Shown piece by piece: positions 29,881-36,224 of a stretch of 64,000 nt of DNA (the first letter of the stretch is position 1; every line of letters begins with the position of its first letter). The position numbers and the translations under genes are program-made. This DNA comes from Curtanaerobium respiraculi (GTDB lineage: Bacteria; Actinomycetota; Coriobacteriia; Coriobacteriales; Eggerthellaceae): contig NZ_JANIPD030000023.1 of assembly GCF_024609215.1 (NCBI RefSeq), forward strand, positions 1 through 64,000, given 5' to 3'. The notes beneath the pieces are model-generated. The model was not told where the DNA came from. It did no database searches and saw only the letters and a program-made list of their open reading frames with translations.

Positions 29881-30972
29881 ATGAGATTTGGAAAACTACG
29901 GGAAGGGGCGAGGATACGCAGGGCGGCGATTCCGTTCGTGTTCGCCTGTGCCCTGATTCTGGGCTGCGCGGTCGCGGCAGGGTGCTCTTCGCAGGCGGAG
30001 ACGAATCGGTCTAGCGGCGGGAGAGCGAACGAAACCGCCGCCCAGAACGACGCTTTCCCCACAACGATCACGGATGCGGGCGGGCGTTCCGTCACCATAC
30101 AAGAGCAACCCGAATCCATCCTCACCGTGTATGGGCTGAAATACGTCCTGGCCCTCGGCCTGGGCGATAAGGTAGTCAACCAGAGCAAGGGCGCGTTCGA
30201 ACTCGCCGTGGCACCCAACATGGCAGATGGCGTTCCTTTCGGAAAAGATCAGATGAACGCGGAGACCATCGCGCAATTGGAACCCGATATATTCATCCAT
30301 AAGGCGCATGCGGACGAGATGTACGATGCTCTCGACAAACTTGGGATCGCGGGCCTGGGCATCCAGATGGAAACCCCGGACGAGGTGGTTGCCACCACCG
30401 AGCTCTTGGGCAAGGCCCTGGGCGTCGAGGACCGTGCGGACATGCTGTGCGACTACTATGAGAACCTAATGGGCAAGGGCGCCGATCTCACGAAGGGCAT
30501 TCCCGATAACCAGCGTCCTACCGCCATCCTCATGGGGAACACCATCGGGAAGGTCGCGAACGGGTCCATGCTCCAGTCCATCATGATAGAAAAGGCAGGC
30601 GGCAACAACCTGGCAAAGGATATCGAGAGCAAGGAGACCTGGCCCACCGTGGGCACGGAGCAGATCTTCGAATGGAATCCCGATTACATCTTCATCATGA
30701 ACTCCACAGCCCGCGACTACGATGCGCAGTCCCTTTTGGAAGATCCCGCATGGCAGAACATCAAGGCCGTCCAGAACGGCAATGTGTACGTGGTCCCAAG
30801 CGATATCGATTCCTGGGAGTACCCCTCACTGGAAAGCGCGCTGGGAACCCTGTGGATGACCCACATCATGTTCCCGGACAAACTGGGAGATGCCGAATTC
30901 GAGGCAGCTGTCGACGACTTCTATCAGACCGTCTACAACGTGAGCTTCACTCGCGAGCAGCTGAACTACTAA
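29881..30972 (+). CDS. ABC transporter substrate-binding lipoprotein (FepB/BtuF-type)
   Basis: A 363-residue lipoprotein with a basic N-terminus, hydrophobic core and lipobox AVAAGCSS. The body is a periplasmic-binding-protein type 2 fold of the iron-chelate/cobalamin/heme class: TITDAGGRSVTI, LEPDIFIHKAHADEMYD, NPDYIFIMNS. It should present a metal chelate or tetrapyrrole to the permease encoded next. The ligand is not deducible. GTAAGGAGGAACC precedes the ATG. It is the first gene of a run that includes nitrogenase-like proteins, which points to a ligand connected with their reaction. Confidence 0.9.
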   Translation: MRFGKLREGARIRRAAIPFVFACALILGCAVAAGCSSQAETNRSSGGRANETAAQNDAFPTTITDAGGRSVTIQEQPESILTVYGLKYVLALGLGDKVVNQSKGAFELAVAPNMADGVPFGKDQMNAETIAQLEPDIFIHKAHADEMYDALDKLGIAGLGIQMETPDEVVATTELLGKALGVEDRADMLCDYYENLMGKGADLTKGIPDNQRPTAILMGNTIGKVANGSMLQSIMIEKAGGNNLAKDIESKETWPTVGTEQIFEWNPDYIFIMNSTARDYDAQSLLEDPAWQNIKAVQNGNVYVVPSDIDSWEYPSLESALGTLWMTHIMFPDKLGDAEFEAAVDDFYQTVYNVSFTREQLNY

Positions 30973-31056
30973 ACGCCCGCATCCAGCAGGCAAAAGCATG
31001 AGGAAGATGCTGGGAGCCGGCACGCTTTCGGCATCCGGCCTCGCCAAGGGGATTCA

Positions 31057-32106
31057 TTGGACTCTTTCGATATCCGATCGAGCCGGCGCGTTAAGAACGC
31101 GCCGGCATGGTTCGCTTTTTTAGGCGTGTTGCTCGGGCTGGTATGCCTGGCCGGGCTTTGCGTTGGACAATACAGGATAGACCCGGGGCAATGCGTATCG
31201 ATCCTGCTCTCGTCGATCGTACCCGGCATCGAACGAGATTGGTCCCGCGTGAGCGAGGAAGTCGTCTGGTACCTGCGCATGCCCCGGATCCTCGCGGCCG
31301 CCCTGGTGGGCGCCTCCCTCTCCATGGCGGGCGCATGCTTCCAAGGTGTGTTCCAAAACCCTCTGGTGTCGCCCGACCTTCTAGGCGTATCGTCCGGGTC
31401 CTGCGTCGGTGCCGCGCTGGCGATCCTTCTGGGACTGGGCGCCGCGGGCATCCAGGGATTTGCATTCGCCATGGGGGTTGCCACGGTGGCGCTCACGCTG
31501 CTGATCCCGCGACTTCTGAAGAACGACACCAACATAATGCTGGTGCTGTCCGGCATCATCGTGGGCGGGCTCATGGGATCCGTCATGGGATTTATCAAGT
31601 ACGTTGCCGATCCCGAATCGGAGTTGGCAACCATCACGTACTGGCAGATGGGCAGCTTCGCCTACATCACGCCGGGGGACCTCCTGAGCATCCTTCCCGC
31701 TCTGGCCGTGGGATTCGCGGGACTGTTCGTGCTCGCGTGGCAGATCGACCTGATGAGCCTCGGCGAGAGGGAAGCACGCATATTGGGGGTGAACGTGCGG
31801 CCCATCAGGAGGCTCGCGATCCTCTGCGCCACGCTCCTCACAGCGGGATCGGTCTGCATCTCGGGGACTATCGGATGGGTCGGCTTGGTGGTCCCGCATT
31901 TCGCACGCGGGTTCGTGGGACCGAACAACCGGGTGCTTTTGCCCTCGTCGGCCTGCCTGGGAGCCATCTTCCTGGTGATCGTGGATACCTGTGCTCGCAC
32001 CATCACCACCACGGAGCTTCCCATCAGCGTCATCACGGGCCTGATAGGCGCTCCCTTCTACGTCTTCCTCCTATACAAGCAGAAGACGAGGATGGACGCT
32101 CGATGA
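31057..32106 (+). CDS. FecCD-family ABC transporter permease
   Basis: A 349-residue membrane protein with about ten helices, of the BtuC/FecCD family. YLRMPRILAAALVGASLSMAGACFQG and GWVGLVVPHFARGFVG are family signatures; the latter part contacts the ATPase. The start is the TTG at 31057 behind AAGGGG. It overlaps the ATPase gene by 4 bases (ATGA). The importer therefore has one permease gene and probably works as a homodimer. Confidence 0.93.
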   Translation: MDSFDIRSSRRVKNAPAWFAFLGVLLGLVCLAGLCVGQYRIDPGQCVSILLSSIVPGIERDWSRVSEEVVWYLRMPRILAAALVGASLSMAGACFQGVFQNPLVSPDLLGVSSGSCVGAALAILLGLGAAGIQGFAFAMGVATVALTLLIPRLLKNDTNIMLVLSGIIVGGLMGSVMGFIKYVADPESELATITYWQMGSFAYITPGDLLSILPALAVGFAGLFVLAWQIDLMSLGEREARILGVNVRPIRRLAILCATLLTAGSVCISGTIGWVGLVVPHFARGFVGPNNRVLLPSSACLGAIFLVIVDTCARTITTTELPISVITGLIGAPFYVFLLYKQKTRMDAR

Positions 32107-32882
32107 TCTACTCCGTCCATGGCATCACGCTTGCCTATCCGAGGATGCCCCCGGTGGTGAGGGAGGCGAGTTTCGAGCTTGATGCAGGCGATATCCTCAC
32201 CATCCTGGGACCAAACGGAGCAGGAAAATCGACGTTGCTCAACGGCTTGATGGGATTGCACGAGTTGGATGGGGGACGTATAGAGGTGGGTGGAAAGGAC
32301 CTGGGATCGCTCTCGCCGAAGGAGCTCGCCCGCAGCGTTGCCTACGTGCAGCAGCACCAAGCGCCGGTATTCGCGTTCTCGGTAGGGGACTTCGTGGCGA
32401 TGGGGCGCGCTCCGCATCTAAGCGTGTACGGCAAGCCGAGGAGACGAGATAGGGAGGCGGTGGAGGCGGCGGTGCGCGCCATGGACTTGGATGGCCTTGT
32501 CGATCGCCCGTGCACCGACATCTCCGGCGGGCAGCGCCAGCAGGCCGCCATAGCCCGTGCGCTTGCCCAGCAGCCGAAGGCCATCCTCCTCGACGAGCCG
32601 ACGGCGCATCTGGATTTCGGGAACCAGATCAAGATCGTTCGCCTGGTGCGGCATCTTTCCAAGATGGGTTACGCCGTCATCATGACCACGCACGACCCGA
32701 ACCAGGCAATCATGCTGCGCGGGCGGGTCGCCATATTGGACACGGCCGGCACATTGACCGTGGGATCGGTCCAAGAACTCATGGAGGAGCGGGCGCTGTG
32801 CGACCTGTACCGCACGGATCTGAAGCTCGCCTATGTGGAATCTGTCGAACGGGACGCCGTCCTGGCGGTCACTCCGGATTGA
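32103..32882 (+). CDS. ABC transporter ATPase (FecE/BtuD-type)
   Basis: A 259-residue ATP-binding subunit of the importer. It has Walker A GPNGAGKST (about residues 35-43), the Q-loop in YVQQHQAP, the signature SGGQRQQ, Walker B AILLDEPTAHLD and the switch His in TTHDPNQA. The ATG at 32103 is coupled to the permease stop. The nitrogenase-like iron protein gene follows after 65 bases with its own ribosome site, with no terminator in between. Confidence 0.95.
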   Translation: MIYSVHGITLAYPRMPPVVREASFELDAGDILTILGPNGAGKSTLLNGLMGLHELDGGRIEVGGKDLGSLSPKELARSVAYVQQHQAPVFAFSVGDFVAMGRAPHLSVYGKPRRRDREAVEAAVRAMDLDGLVDRPCTDISGGQRQQAAIARALAQQPKAILLDEPTAHLDFGNQIKIVRLVRHLSKMGYAVIMTTHDPNQAIMLRGRVAILDTAGTLTVGSVQELMEERALCDLYRTDLKLAYVESVERDAVLAVTPD

Positions 32883-32947
32883 CGGAGGCTGCTGTTATTC
32901 GGCGGCGCCGCAGCATTTCGCATTCATTACGAGAAAGAGGGAAGCCA

Positions 32948-33709
32948 ATGGTGAAGATAGCCATATACGGGAAGGGCGGTATCGGCAAGTCGACCACCGC
33001 ATCCAACATTGCAGTGGCGCTCGCCGAACGCGGGCTGAGGATCATGCAGATTGGCTGCGACCCCAAGGCCGATTCCACGAGGTTCCTAACGGGCGGGGCA
33101 TCCATCCCCACGGTGCTCGATCGCATGAGGGAGGATCCGGACTCGATGGAACTCGATGATATCATGGCAACCGGCTACGCGGGCGTGATGTGCGTGGAGG
33201 CTGGAGGGCCAACCCCGGGTATCGGATGCGCCGGACGGGGCATCATCACGGCATTCGAGAAGCTCGCGGAACTGGACGCCTACGAGATCGGCCATCCGGA
33301 CGTGATCCTCTACGATGTGCTGGGGGATGTCGTCTGCGGCGGATTCGCCATGCCATTGAGGAAGGACTACGCGGACGAGGTGTTTGTCGTGACTTCCGGA
33401 GAGAAGATGGCGCTCTATGCGGCTGCCAACATCATGCTCGCGTTGAAGAATTTCAAGACCCGTGGGTACGCCGAGCTGGGAGGGCTGGTTCTCAACGAGA
33501 GGAATGTCGCCCGCGAGCGCGAGCTGGTGGAGGAGCTCGCCTGCGAGGAAGGCACATCCGTTGTGGGCTCGATCCCCCGCGCTCCCGAGGTGCAGGCGTC
33601 CGAGGACAGGGGGCAGACCGTCATGCAGTCATTCCCGCAGAGCGCGATAGCCGGACGATATCGCACGCTTGCCGAACGCATGCTCGAGGCCTGCGGGGTC
33701 CCGGCATGA
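32948..33709 (+). CDS. NifH/BchL-like iron protein (nitrogenase-like ATPase)
   Basis: A 253-residue ATP-dependent electron donor of the nitrogenase iron protein superfamily. It has the P-loop YGKGGIGKST at residues 7-16. The two Cys that hold the intersubunit [4Fe-4S] cluster are Cys94 (GIGCAGRG) and Cys130 (DVVCGGFAMP), matching Cys97 and Cys132 of Azotobacter NifH. It should hydrolyse ATP to deliver low-potential electrons to the two component 1-like proteins encoded next. Its stop overlaps the next start (ATGA). It is shorter than true NifH (about 290), and no nifB, nifE or nifN is present. Confidence 0.93.
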   Translation: MVKIAIYGKGGIGKSTTASNIAVALAERGLRIMQIGCDPKADSTRFLTGGASIPTVLDRMREDPDSMELDDIMATGYAGVMCVEAGGPTPGIGCAGRGIITAFEKLAELDAYEIGHPDVILYDVLGDVVCGGFAMPLRKDYADEVFVVTSGEKMALYAAANIMLALKNFKTRGYAELGGLVLNERNVARERELVEELACEEGTSVVGSIPRAPEVQASEDRGQTVMQSFPQSAIAGRYRTLAERMLEACGVPA

Positions 33710-35001
33710 GGGGAACGTGCTTCGCATGCTCCCCAGGAAGCAAGCCGGACGGGCGGAGCGGCCTGGAAAGCACGCTGTCCTACCGCATCCCCGAGGCACC
33801 GCGCAAGCGCACCCTGTTGCATATCCCGGAAAGCCATACCCTGTTCACGGGACCGTCCTCCTGCATGCGACGCCATTCCCTGGCAGCGAGGCAGTACGGG
33901 AACATCGAGAATATATCCTGCCTGTGCATCACGCAGGCCGACGTCATCTCCGGGAACTACGAGGACCTGATCGTGGAGGCGGCGGGCGAGCTCCTGGAAA
34001 CCCTGCGCCGCAGACCGCGCATCATATTTATCGACCTCTTCTGCATCGATGATTTCCTGGGCACAGATGACGAATCCCTTGCAGGCGCCTTGGCTGCCGC
34101 CTATCCGGATACCCGGTTCGCCGTGGAGCACATCCACCCGGTGGCATTGAACGAGAAGGTCTCCATGGGCGAGGTCGACCATTTCAACCTGTACTCGTTC
34201 GTGGACCCCGTCCCGCCCGACGAGCACGATGGCGGTGTGAACGTGCTGGGGGCCTTCGTCCCCTTCAACCCGCGGAGCGAATTCTTCCGCGTGCTGGAGC
34301 AGATGGAGGCGGGTCCCGTGCGCTATCTGCATGCTTGCAGCACGTTCGGCGAGTATCAGGATATGGGGAAAAGCTCGCTTGCCTTGGTTGCGCGCGCCCT
34401 GGGGCGCACCGCAGCCGAGGACATGCGAGACCGGTTGGGCATCCCCTTCATGTCCTTCCCGGCTTGCTACGATTGCGACCAGGTGGGAGCAGACTACAAG
34501 CGCATGGCTCAGCTTCTCGGGAAGCCTGAACCCGATTTATCGGAGTGGGATCGCCGCGCGCGCTCCGCCGTGAAACAGACGGTCGAGGTTCTGGGCGACG
34601 TGCCCCTTGCCGTGGACTGCGAGGGATCCTTGGTTCCCCATTCGCTCGCCCGGGCTCTTCTGGATTACGGTTTCAACGTGAGATGGCTCTTCCGCTCCAA
34701 GCACCTTTTCGACACAGACGCGGACGATAGGGAAGTGTTGGCAGCGCGATACCCAGACCTTTCGATAGCTCGCGTTGACGATGCTCGTCTCCACGTGGAC
34801 GCCATGGTAGGCGGGCGGGACATCCGCCGCCGGAAAGATGTTCTGGCGATAGGGAGGAGCGCGGCATGCATACTGGGTACGCCCTATTACATCGATATGT
34901 GGCACGATGAGGGCTTCACCGGCTACCACGGCATCTGCGAGCTCATGCGCCTGATGCGTGGGCAGCGCGCCCGCATGGAGGGGAAGGAGGCAGCGCTATG
35001 A
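33706..35001 (+). CDS. Nitrogenase component 1-like protein (NifD/BchN-like), first subunit
   Basis: A 431-residue protein of the nitrogenase component 1 type oxidoreductase superfamily, probably the catalytic or substrate-binding partner of the NifH-like protein. Candidate cluster ligands are Cys5 and Cys8 at the N-terminus, Cys53 in FTGPSSCMRRH (the position of the GPxxC ligand in NifD), Cys72 and Cys74, and later Cys211, Cys254 and Cys257. The pattern differs from NifD, BchN and BchB that I know. Start ATG 33706 overlaps the NifH-like stop. Function is unknown; a reductase acting on an imported compound is the simplest idea. Confidence 0.88.
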   Translation: MRGTCFACSPGSKPDGRSGLESTLSYRIPEAPRKRTLLHIPESHTLFTGPSSCMRRHSLAARQYGNIENISCLCITQADVISGNYEDLIVEAAGELLETLRRRPRIIFIDLFCIDDFLGTDDESLAGALAAAYPDTRFAVEHIHPVALNEKVSMGEVDHFNLYSFVDPVPPDEHDGGVNVLGAFVPFNPRSEFFRVLEQMEAGPVRYLHACSTFGEYQDMGKSSLALVARALGRTAAEDMRDRLGIPFMSFPACYDCDQVGADYKRMAQLLGKPEPDLSEWDRRARSAVKQTVEVLGDVPLAVDCEGSLVPHSLARALLDYGFNVRWLFRSKHLFDTDADDREVLAARYPDLSIARVDDARLHVDAMVGGRDIRRRKDVLAIGRSAACILGTPYYIDMWHDEGFTGYHGICELMRLMRGQRARMEGKEAAL

Positions 35002-36224
35002 ACGGGCTCCTGCATTACCTTCCGCCCTTCGCCAGCGACTACTCGGGTGTTGCCTCCGCGTTGCACGGCATGGGGAGCATGACGATTCTGTGCGATGCGG
35101 GATGCTGCACGGACCAGTACATCTTCTACGATGAGCCCCGGTGGGCCGAGCAGCAGGAACCAGTGTTCTCCACCACGCTCCGAACGGTGGATGCGGTTTT
35201 GGGCTGCGACGCCGGAATCGTAGAGCGGTGTGTCGCCATGGTCGGATCCCTGAACGTGCGTCCCGCATTCATCGCGCTGATCGCCACGCCGGTTCCCGCC
35301 ATTGTGGGCATGGACGCTCGCGGTGTGGCCTGTGAAATCGAGAGTGCGCTGGGCATCCCCGCCCTCGGGTTCGACACGACGGGGTTCCGATTCTACGACT
35401 GGGGGATCGAGGCGGTGCCGCGCGCCCTCGTGGACCGCTTCGGACCCGAAGCTCCCGCCGTGGCTTCACGGGAAGTGATCGTGAACCTCTTGGGGGCGAC
35501 GCCGTTGGATTTCGGAGACGTGGGGATGCTTGAACGCACGACCGATGCCCTGGCCTTGCACGGCATCCGCGTGAACGTCTGCCTGCCGGGAGCGGGCGGT
35601 ACGGATCGGATATCCCATATCGCCGATGCGCATGCGAACCTGGCGCTCACGGCATCGGGTGTGGGGATAGCCCGCATGCTGGAGCGGCGGTACGGTACGC
35701 CCTACGCGATTGGGTGCCCTTACGGACCGGTTGGCGGTGACATCGTCGCCGCCCTTGCGGATGCGATTCGCTCCGTCGCCTGCGGCGAGCAACCCAGCGG
35801 GTTCGCACCGCTGCACCCCTCCACAGGACGCAAGCTGCAAGGGCATGACGGCGGTCCGTATCCACCCGATGGAGAGAGCGCAGCCATGCCCGTAGGCGCG
35901 AACGAGCGCGTTTTGGTCATCGGGGACCAGGTGATGGCGCAAAGCGCGCGAGCAGACTACGCGGCGCGACACCCCGAGGCGCGAATCGCCGTGGCGAGTC
36001 CCTTCGGATGGCGGAAGGAGCTCGCGGCTCCCGGGGATTTCCACTTCAAGGGCGAGCAGGACCTAATTGACGAGGCCAAGGCATTCGGCCCCCAGACGGT
36101 GGTCGCCGACCCGCTCTACGGGTTTTTGGCAGATACGCTCGACGGCTGCACGCTTATCCCAAAGGTCCATCCGGCGATCTCCGGAAAGCTCCACTGGAAG
36201 GATGCGCGCAACCCCATCACCTGA
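34998..36224 (+). CDS. Nitrogenase component 1-like protein (NifK/BchB-like), second subunit
   Basis: A 408-residue partner of the preceding gene, same superfamily. The N-terminus reads LPPFASDYSGVASALHGMGS, and DAGCCTDQYIFYDEPRW holds Cys36 and Cys37 where cluster ligands are expected. Further Cys are at 32, 70, 78 and 112. GAGGTDRISHIADAHANL and IGCPYGPVGGD resemble cofactor-pocket regions of the family. ATG 34998 overlaps the previous stop. Together the three genes form an H-D-K set without cofactor-biosynthesis genes, which argues against dinitrogen fixation. Confidence 0.88.
   Translation: MNGLLHYLPPFASDYSGVASALHGMGSMTILCDAGCCTDQYIFYDEPRWAEQQEPVFSTTLRTVDAVLGCDAGIVERCVAMVGSLNVRPAFIALIATPVPAIVGMDARGVACEIESALGIPALGFDTTGFRFYDWGIEAVPRALVDRFGPEAPAVASREVIVNLLGATPLDFGDVGMLERTTDALALHGIRVNVCLPGAGGTDRISHIADAHANLALTASGVGIARMLERRYGTPYAIGCPYGPVGGDIVAALADAIRSVACGEQPSGFAPLHPSTGRKLQGHDGGPYPPDGESAAMPVGANERVLVIGDQVMAQSARADYAARHPEARIAVASPFGWRKELAAPGDFHFKGEQDLIDEAKAFGPQTVVADPLYGFLADTLDGCTLIPKVHPAISGKLHWKDARNPIT

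Follow-up and report, generated by a model that had tools for sequence, protein, structure and literature searches.

A nitrogenase-like H-D-K gene set encoded with a FecBCD-type importer in Curtanaerobium respiraculi and its candidate role in molybdenum supply

Nitrogenase-like proteins are known to act in the chemistry of nitrogen, chlorophyll, F430 and sulfur. We analyzed a stretch of 64,000 nucleotides from the gut-type bacterium Curtanaerobium respiraculi (contig NZ_JANIPD030000023.1, positions 1 to 64,000; this whole stretch is called the window), in which six genes at 29881-36224 on the + strand encode an ABC importer and a nitrogenase-like H-D-K set. Relatives of these genes point to molybdenum. 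A part in molybdenum supply, if true, would add a function to those of the superfamily and would raise the question of why molybdenum needs ATP-driven electrons.

BchLNB (DPOR) and BchXYZ (COR) are ATP-driven reductases, as the H-D-K set is predicted to be, and DPOR contains [4Fe-4S] clusters. Cys37 of K falls at the Asp site of BchB. However, BchN supplies three cysteines where D has two that are conserved, and D and K lie outside the BchN, BchB, BchY and BchZ clades. CfbCD resembles the set in that CfbC is the NCBIfam model closest to H and CfbD has cysteines at both of the conserved D positions. It differs in that D and K are here separate genes in clades apart from CfbD, with an importer nearby in most loci and, in the window's subclade, MoeA and a molybdenum cofactor (Moco) riboswitch. 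NifE is the best solved match of both the D and K profiles, and NifEN, acting with NifH, is also a site of molybdenum insertion, as part of PMC12552129 describes. Unlike NifEN, the set here has no NifB in its genome, no ligand for the iron-molybdenum cofactor (FeMo-co), three conserved cysteines and an importer in its operon. MarHDK and IsrHDK share the H-D-K gene order and are ATP-driven small-molecule reductases. Mar, in the same part of PMC12552129, carries an [Fe8S9C] cluster beside a P-cluster held by six cysteines, whereas there are three conserved cluster cysteines here; Isr needs a radical SAM partner (PMC11423573, in part), and none is encoded in the window's operon.

Two further systems bear on the importer and on the fate of its substrate. 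The window permease is nearest to HI1471, and the receptor is similar to HI_1472, of the MolBCA importer of Haemophilus influenzae; the likeness is by sequence only, and the window importer differs in being encoded with a reductase. MoeA is a linked or fused partner of the set in relatives. The linked copies are nonetheless divergent, stand beside a higher-scoring copy in most genomes and are absent from the window's operon.

Among open papers, with most subscription papers outside the search, we found none pairing nitrogenase-like genes with FecCD, MoeA, Eggerthella, or Moco and a riboswitch. Two papers, PMC2408646 and PMC13390414, mention both the Moco riboswitch and nitrogenase. An earlier sighting of such genes behind Moco RNAs in the supplement of PMC2408646 is possible, because the reference list of that paper has a nitrogenase structure and FhuD while those parts of its main text that we could consult name no nitrogenase gene. 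H-D-K with its importer is a real and widely conserved system that is undescribed in the literature searched.

The six genes and their place in the nitrogenase superfamily

All six reading frames are open throughout, and the coordinates given here include stop codons. The first gene (29881-30972) encodes a lipoprotein receptor of 363 amino acids (the substrate-binding protein, SBP) of a FecB/BtuF/MolA-type importer (Pfam Peripla_BP_2, E = 4.8e-24); its best solved-sequence matches are 4hn9 and 4ovk, and the next is HI_1472 (3psa). It is followed by a FecCD-type permease of 349 amino acids with a TTG start (31057-32106; FecCD, E = 1.9e-85) and the importer ABC ATPase of 259 amino acids (32103-32882; ABC_tran). 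H, a NifH-like ATPase of 253 amino acids with Cys94 and Cys130, lies at 32948-33709 (Fer4_NifH, E = 6.3e-94). The two component-1 proteins are D, with 431 amino acids and Cys53 and Cys113 (33706-35001; Oxidored_nitro, E = 3.1e-22), and K, with 408 amino acids and Cys36 and Cys37 (34998-36224; Oxidored_nitro, E = 2.7e-23). Each of the six proteins scores above the curated Pfam cut-off. ATGA overlaps join permease to ATPase, H to D and D to K; gaps of 84 bases (SBP to permease) and 65 bases (ATPase to H) separate other neighbors. The original prediction, made from the sequence of the window, had named six same-strand genes, their families and these three overlaps, all of which are borne out by the open frames, the Pfam matches and the sequence itself. 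It had also named Cys94 and Cys130 of H, which are present here and conserved in every one of the 14 H proteins aligned. No Rfam family reached its gathering score in the window.

The set has the marks of the nitrogenase superfamily, namely a Fer4_NifH ATPase with two cluster cysteines and a PF00148 component 1. Among NCBIfam models, H scored best on CfbC (333.2 bits) and next on NifH (328.9 bits), both below their cut-offs, and its best solved sequence is NifH 1cp2. We then placed the component-1 proteins in a tree of 99 rows, with 39 D and 39 K rows picked for breadth from 86 and 89. The references were taken from genomes of relatives: Rhodoplanes (NifDKEN, BchN, BchB, BchY and BchZ), a member of the Chloroflexi (a nitrogenase set) and Methanoplasma (CfbD and other sets); Bch and CfbD were labeled by NCBIfam, and Nif by gene order and Pfam score only. 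L numbers denote loci fetched from relatives and G numbers genomes, G000 being the window's. L036 (masked stretch) was left out of the D, K and H trees, as were L029, L032, L033, L035, L037 and L038, duplicates of named contigs. The 39 D rows fell on one side of a branch (Shimodaira-Hasegawa-like approximate likelihood ratio test, SH-aLRT, 97) and the 39 K rows on one side of another (99), with the named references outside both. K groups weakly with BchN and CfbD (81), and long branches leave the deep joins of this tree unsure. Thus D and K form clades outside the included references of known reaction (Nif, BchNB/YZ and CfbD).

An unnamed Methanoplasma set, L163, joins D in this tree (SH-aLRT 96). 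It is an H-D-K set with FecCD-type permeases, and its D gene contains a TAG codon in frame, which may encode pyrrolysine or be a sequencing error.

The window's genome comprises 2.5 Mb in 44 contigs. Its PF00148 matches are the two D-K pairs and no others, so the genome has no NifE or NifN, and NifB (TIGR01290) gave no match in it; the absence of nifB, nifE and nifN first noted for the window therefore holds genome-wide. The second pair belongs to a distant H-D-K and importer set at C1:138390-144855 (L009:6391-12856), ordered SBP-H-D-K-permease-ATPase and belonging to another clade. No MoeA gene was found on contig C1.

The conserved cysteines point to a simple site. We aligned 86 D proteins and 89 K proteins. 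Cys53 and Cys113 of D are present in 86 of 86, in the columns of NifD Cys88 and Cys154, and both columns also hold cysteine in CfbD. Cys37 of K is present in 89 of 89; its column holds the NifK/NifN cysteine and the Asp of BchB. The K rows shown in the alignment have Pro at the second position. Six cysteines hold the P-cluster of nitrogenase; here just three of those sites, two in D and one in K, keep an invariant cysteine, and a single D protein of the 86 has Cys at the position of NifD Cys275, a FeMo-co ligand. MarDK, in the part of PMC12552129 that describes it, has six P-cluster cysteines and an [Fe8S9C] cluster. Because of these differences in ligands, D-K resembles the members with simple [4Fe-4S] clusters. 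The alignment suggests that the D-K site holds one simple cluster rather than a P-cluster or FeMo-co, predicted to be a single [4Fe-4S] cluster shared by D-Cys53, D-Cys113 and K-Cys37. The fourth ligand is possibly not a cysteine or, in the window's subclade, K-Cys36.

Conservation of H-D-K with the importer

The original prediction had proposed asking whether the ABC genes co-occur with H-D-K across genomes. They do, in many phyla. A search with D across 138 genomes from the window's own family found matches in 14 of them, one being the window's genome. Twelve of the 13 relatives' loci, fetched as stretches of up to 18 kb, encode H-D-K together with the complete three-gene importer, in an order that varies among loci. 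Frames are broken in two of these 12, in the permease of L031, which is split, and in L036, part of which is masked. A pattern-type protein scan of genome contigs with D alone gave 19 matches and no relative.

We next scanned one genome per species with the K alignment and kept the best 80 of 91 relatives. They come from Bacillota, Spirochaetota, Actinomycetota, Pseudomonadota, Chloroflexota, Synergistota, SAR324, Eiseniibacteriota and a methanogenic archaeon. By profile scores across the fetched sequence, H, D and K occur together in 75 of the 80 loci and in all 57 of those at least 14 kb long. The importer is complete, with all three genes, in 65 of 80, in 57 of 63 that are at least 12.5 kb long and in 53 of 57 that are at least 14 kb long. 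The gap between K and the permease has a median of 1.3 kb and a maximum of 5.9 kb in the 80 loci. The window's genome has 10 FecCD matches in its 2.5 Mb (9 above cut-off), two of which sit in its two H-D-K clusters, and the association of H-D-K with the importer exceeds chance. Neither outcome named beforehand as fatal to the idea, a place inside a clade of known reaction or ABC genes never adjacent, was seen among the references and loci included.

Twelve of the 80 loci lack a FecCD permease. In L054 the permease is on another contig (L188) of the same genome; L057, L066, L125 and L126 are short contigs; and L051 has no FecCD permease within 13.9 kb. L061-L063 have an SBP_bac_5-type importer in its place. 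L105 has a Bmp nucleoside-type importer, with a PfkB kinase between H and D and two ADP-ribosylglycohydrolases. L111 and L112 adjoin HypF.

The set occurs widely in anaerobes, those of the gut among them, so nifH-like genes of this kind may contribute to the pseudo-nifH signal treated in part of PMC8597730.

A probable molybdenum-linked subclade with MoeA and Moco riboswitches

In the K tree the window falls in a four-row clade (SH-aLRT 99) with L047 (Lachnospiraceae), L048 (Alkalibaculum) and L049 (Coriobacteriales). An enclosing clade of 15 rows (98) adds L030, L031, L034, L050, L054, L056, L058, L064, L109, L124 and L041. The same rows, where H exists, form one set in the H tree (96), and nine of them group in the D tree (100). 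Cys36 of K marks this subclade: it is present in 14 of 15 rows, the window included (L041 has Gly), and all 74 of the 74 other rows have Gly. L221 (genome G336) was counted in the subclade by its D-profile score (566 bits) and L036 by its likeness to L034, rather than by the K tree. The 16 subclade loci are thus ten named loci, L030, L031, L034, L036, L221 and the window, with L041 uncounted. Ellagibacter isourolithinifaciens is one member of the subclade. D-profile searches of three genome sets (295, 392 and 394) for further members found, besides those known, only G336 above 500 bits. Seven other loci came from these searches (L222-L228); six of them have the complete importer, and MoeA is in none.

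L041 is the own-family locus without the full gene set and a member of the K clade. It encodes D and K but neither H nor the importer, and genes for a two-TOBE protein and for an HTH-PBP_like regulator lie nearby.

A divergent MoeA gene, of a type that goes with H-D-K, is present in 14 of the 16 subclade loci, the exceptions being the window and L049, a 6.6-kb contig. Outside the subclade it is found in one (L121) of 70 other named loci, some of which are short. All 22 genomes searched encode MoeA, and 21 of them have a copy of at least 137 bits besides any linked one; the best in G151 scores 102 bits. In the MoeA tree, from which three duplicate rows were dropped and the L054 protein (split reading frame) was left out, the linked MoeA proteins form one group (SH-aLRT 88), which also takes in that of L121 and an Alkalibaculum copy (L259). 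DTGDDF occurs in all 13 linked MoeA proteins compared and VPGPxxA in 11 of them; the canonical copy of the genome has MTGAPL and LPGNPAA in their place. These changed motifs presumably belong to the active site.

K and MoeA are also close neighbors. They adjoin in L029/L064, L030, L034 and L054, and in L050 they are fused in one frame of 807 amino acids without internal stop (L050:3483-5906), with Oxidored_nitro at residues 62-262 and MoeA_N, MoCF_biosynth and MoeA_C at 418-800. This adjacency and the fusion suggest a handover from D-K to MoeA. Genes for DUF364/DUF4213, annotated as putative heavy-metal chelation, occur in three subclade genomes (L033/L058, L034 and L036), and a radical SAM gene lies 3' of MoeA at two loci (L029/L064 and L030). 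A gene for a RACo-like protein, a corrinoid protein activator, is found shortly downstream of K-MoeA at L054:2753-4234.

We also searched for the Moco riboswitch RF01055, scoring at most 119 candidates per genome. It lies ahead of importer or H-D-K genes in four of the six clostridial subclade loci, L221 being counted as clostridial since its genome was taken from the same order as that of L056. In L056 it precedes MoeA-permease-ATPase-SBP-H-D-K by 127 bases, and in L050 it stands about 50-90 bases before H-D-K/MoeA-permease-ATPase-SBP. In L188 it precedes permease-ATPase-SBP-H-D, with K-MoeA on L054 of the same genome, which we infer to be one operon. In L047 it precedes methyltransferase-permease-ATPase-SBP, divergent from MoeA-H-D-K. 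Two RF01055 RNAs were found in each of these four genomes. A rough chance estimate for the four placements, assuming random positions and counting only the four positive genomes, is 2e-14. From its place behind this riboswitch in several clostridia, the unit is probably made when the cofactor is short. None of 30 scanned loci of other clades has RF01055; the 30 include 18 of the 70 other named loci, and two in the final group of seven seem to be repeats of counted contigs. The other riboswitches in the scans, none of them recurrent directly before the unit, were for THF (L085 and L225), SAM (L222), FMN (L074) and lysine (L056). The two THF riboswitches, in other clades, are at L085:5314-5413 and L225:17763-17859.

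Tungsten, which is harder to reduce than molybdenum, was considered as the metal instead. According to part of PMC2408646, a P3 stem marks the RNAs associated with Moco, and its absence those associated with the tungsten cofactor (Tuco). By our reading of the alignments, a P3-like stem is present in all four operon-linked RF01055 RNAs and in neither L185 nor L189, which lowers the case for tungsten. L189, in the Alkalibaculum genome, is a P3-lacking Moco/Tuco riboswitch before the genes of a FecCD-type importer and a methyltransferase, without H-D-K.

The best solved sequence of the window permease is HI1471 (2nq2; 226.7 bits, next 165.5), and that of L056 behaves likewise (207.2 bits, next 155.7), while one unrelated FecCD permease of the window's genome preferred FhuB (163.0) over HI1471 (144.2). 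We take HI1471 to be MolB of the MolBCA molybdate/tungstate importer of Haemophilus influenzae. This likeness agrees with molybdenum or tungsten import. As proof of molybdenum import it is weak, because the permease of L074, outside the subclade, scores higher on HI1471 (245.1 bits, next 181.5).

The window's genome encodes two MoeA proteins, both on contigs other than that of the window, which itself holds no MoeA. The copy on contig C7 was considered as the missing partner (E = 9.1e-64 to linked MoeA) and rejected, because the MoeA tree puts it in a different clade. The genome also encodes a xanthine-dehydrogenase-family protein with both molybdenum-cofactor domains, adjoining YqeC, and by its gene content this organism is a molybdenum user. 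A divergent MoeA, a xanthine dehydrogenase-family molybdenum hydroxylase and YqeC lie near one another at L044:9131-17935 (G000:C7).

These data make a link to molybdenum or tungsten highly probable for the subclade. For the window it is probable, at a lower level of confidence: its genome yielded no such riboswitch and no MoeA from the linked group, so the link comes through its relatives.

Proposed function and alternatives

We propose that the six genes form an import-and-reduce unit, in which a BtuCD/MolBC-type importer works with a two-component ATP-driven reductase of the nitrogenase superfamily. The importer would bring in a molybdenum species, which may be an oxyanion, a thiomolybdate or a chelate. 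H, a [4Fe-4S] ATPase, would pass low-potential electrons to D-K, which would reduce the molybdenum species, or a chelate or pterin holding molybdenum. The product would be handed to a MoeA-type insertase that builds the molybdenum cofactor; in the window's genome this would be one of the two unlinked MoeA proteins. A reductase might be needed for breakdown of a thiomolybdate or chelate, or if the metal is inserted in a reduced state. We give an even chance to a unit that imports and reduces to process molybdenum species for molybdopterin insertion, and hold reduction of the imported species as the exact step to be possible, at somewhat less than even. More tentative still is a broader view, in which the set is a new superfamily branch in molybdenum cofactor assembly, with its own importer, reduction of a molybdenum species and direct handover to a dedicated MoeA, and the wider family consists of metal-supply reductases with partners such as CobW/HypB-like GTPases and HypF. 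The proposal provides testable partners: the receptor, H-D-K, MoeA and the riboswitch.

The earlier suggestion of an ATP-driven reductase acting on an imported molecule still gives the simplest reading of the operon. What has changed is the substrate, which for the subclade is refined, with moderate confidence, to molybdenum by MoeA, the fusion and the Moco riboswitch. A tetrapyrrole, heme, corrinoid or F430 substrate finds little support.

Several observations weigh against molybdenum reduction by this unit. MoeA is not known to need molybdate to be reduced first, which leaves the need for a reductase unexplained. No RF01055 was found in the window or its genome (119 of 130 candidates scored), although this is weakly informative because none was found in the eight other actinobacterial subclade genomes either (in four of the nine, 119 of 130-154 candidates were scored). 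Two of the six clostridial subclade loci, L048 and L221, have no RF01055 at gathering score; the genome of L048 has five elsewhere, one of them before another FecCD-type importer with a methyltransferase (L189). The window's genome has no MoeA of the linked group, its C7 copy being in another MoeA clade, and the K-MoeA fusion is a single case from a metagenome-assembled genome. In the D tree, the L041 protein sits on a long branch apart from the subclade. Outside the subclade no recurrent molybdenum gene was found except the MoeA of L121, a few clades keep other transporters with H-D-K, closeness of the permease to HI1471 extends beyond the subclade (L074), and a RACo-like gene lies near L054.

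If H-D-K instead reduced the pterin, or the metal on MoeA, in a reductive metal insertion, the importer would only supply molybdate or tungstate. The K-MoeA fusion and adjacency would fit, as would the changed motifs of the 13 linked MoeA proteins and the high-scoring second MoeA (at least 137 bits) in 21 of 22 genomes. However, other clades keep the importer with H-D-K and almost never MoeA, so the link between importer and reductase is broader than that with MoeA. We regard reductive insertion as unlikely.

The loci with other transporters raise a different alternative, that H-D-K is one of many substrate-specific reductases for imported organics such as sulfur compounds or nucleosides, with the transporter matched per clade. 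L105, with its Bmp importer, PfkB kinase and ADP-ribosylglycohydrolases, and L061-L063, with SBP_bac_5-type importers, are what such a family would predict. These are only 4 of 80 loci, all outside the window's subclade, and metal-handling genes (MoeA, CobW/HypB-like GTPase and HypF) occur in several clades, which makes organic substrates rather improbable.

BtuCD-type importers carry B12 and heme, and the imported substrate could be a tetrapyrrole or corrinoid, reduced as by DPOR, COR or CfbCD, with the MoeA link secondary. The hints in this direction are the best NCBIfam score of H, on CfbC, and a TonB receptor near L077, the RACo-like protein near L054 and DUF4430 domains beside L039; in addition, the [4Fe-4S]-only members DPOR and CfbCD act on tetrapyrroles (PMC12552129, in part). 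Against these stand the Moco riboswitch and MoeA links. No scanned locus has a cobalamin riboswitch, and no tetrapyrrole enzyme is found among the recurrent neighbor clusters identified, which are part of those listed. This substrate class is improbable to much the same degree.

That the set is a nitrogenase, or a reductase of the Mar/Isr type whose cofactor derives from NifB, would explain superfamily membership but is very improbable, because the window's genome has no NifB and the cluster ligands differ (Cys at the Cys275 position in 1 of 86 D proteins, and three conserved cluster cysteines against six in MarDK in part of PMC12552129).

Other neighbors of H-D-K

The wider metal-supply theme is much weaker than the molybdenum link of the subclade. 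CobW/HypB-like GTPase genes (10 loci) and HypF (four loci) fit it; the nucleoside-type neighbors of L105 and the RACo-like gene of L054 speak against a single theme.

HypF-like genes adjoin H-D-K in L111, L112, L125 and L126, with a Pfam check on L126 only. L111 also has HydF and a radical SAM protein, and L112 has two H-D-K sets. The CobW/HypB-like GTPase cluster, one member of which was checked with Pfam, lies near H-D-K in L098, L106, L114-L116, L118-L120, L122 and L123. These loci mostly have an SBP_bac_6-type protein, apparently without a signal peptide, and both loci checked (L098 and L120) have an extra ABC ATPase. Within the window's family, L039 and L040 form a third type, SBP-permease-ATPase-D-K-H, beside a protein of about 1840 amino acids; in L039 this protein has DUF4430 domains, and MacB and HlyD genes are also present.

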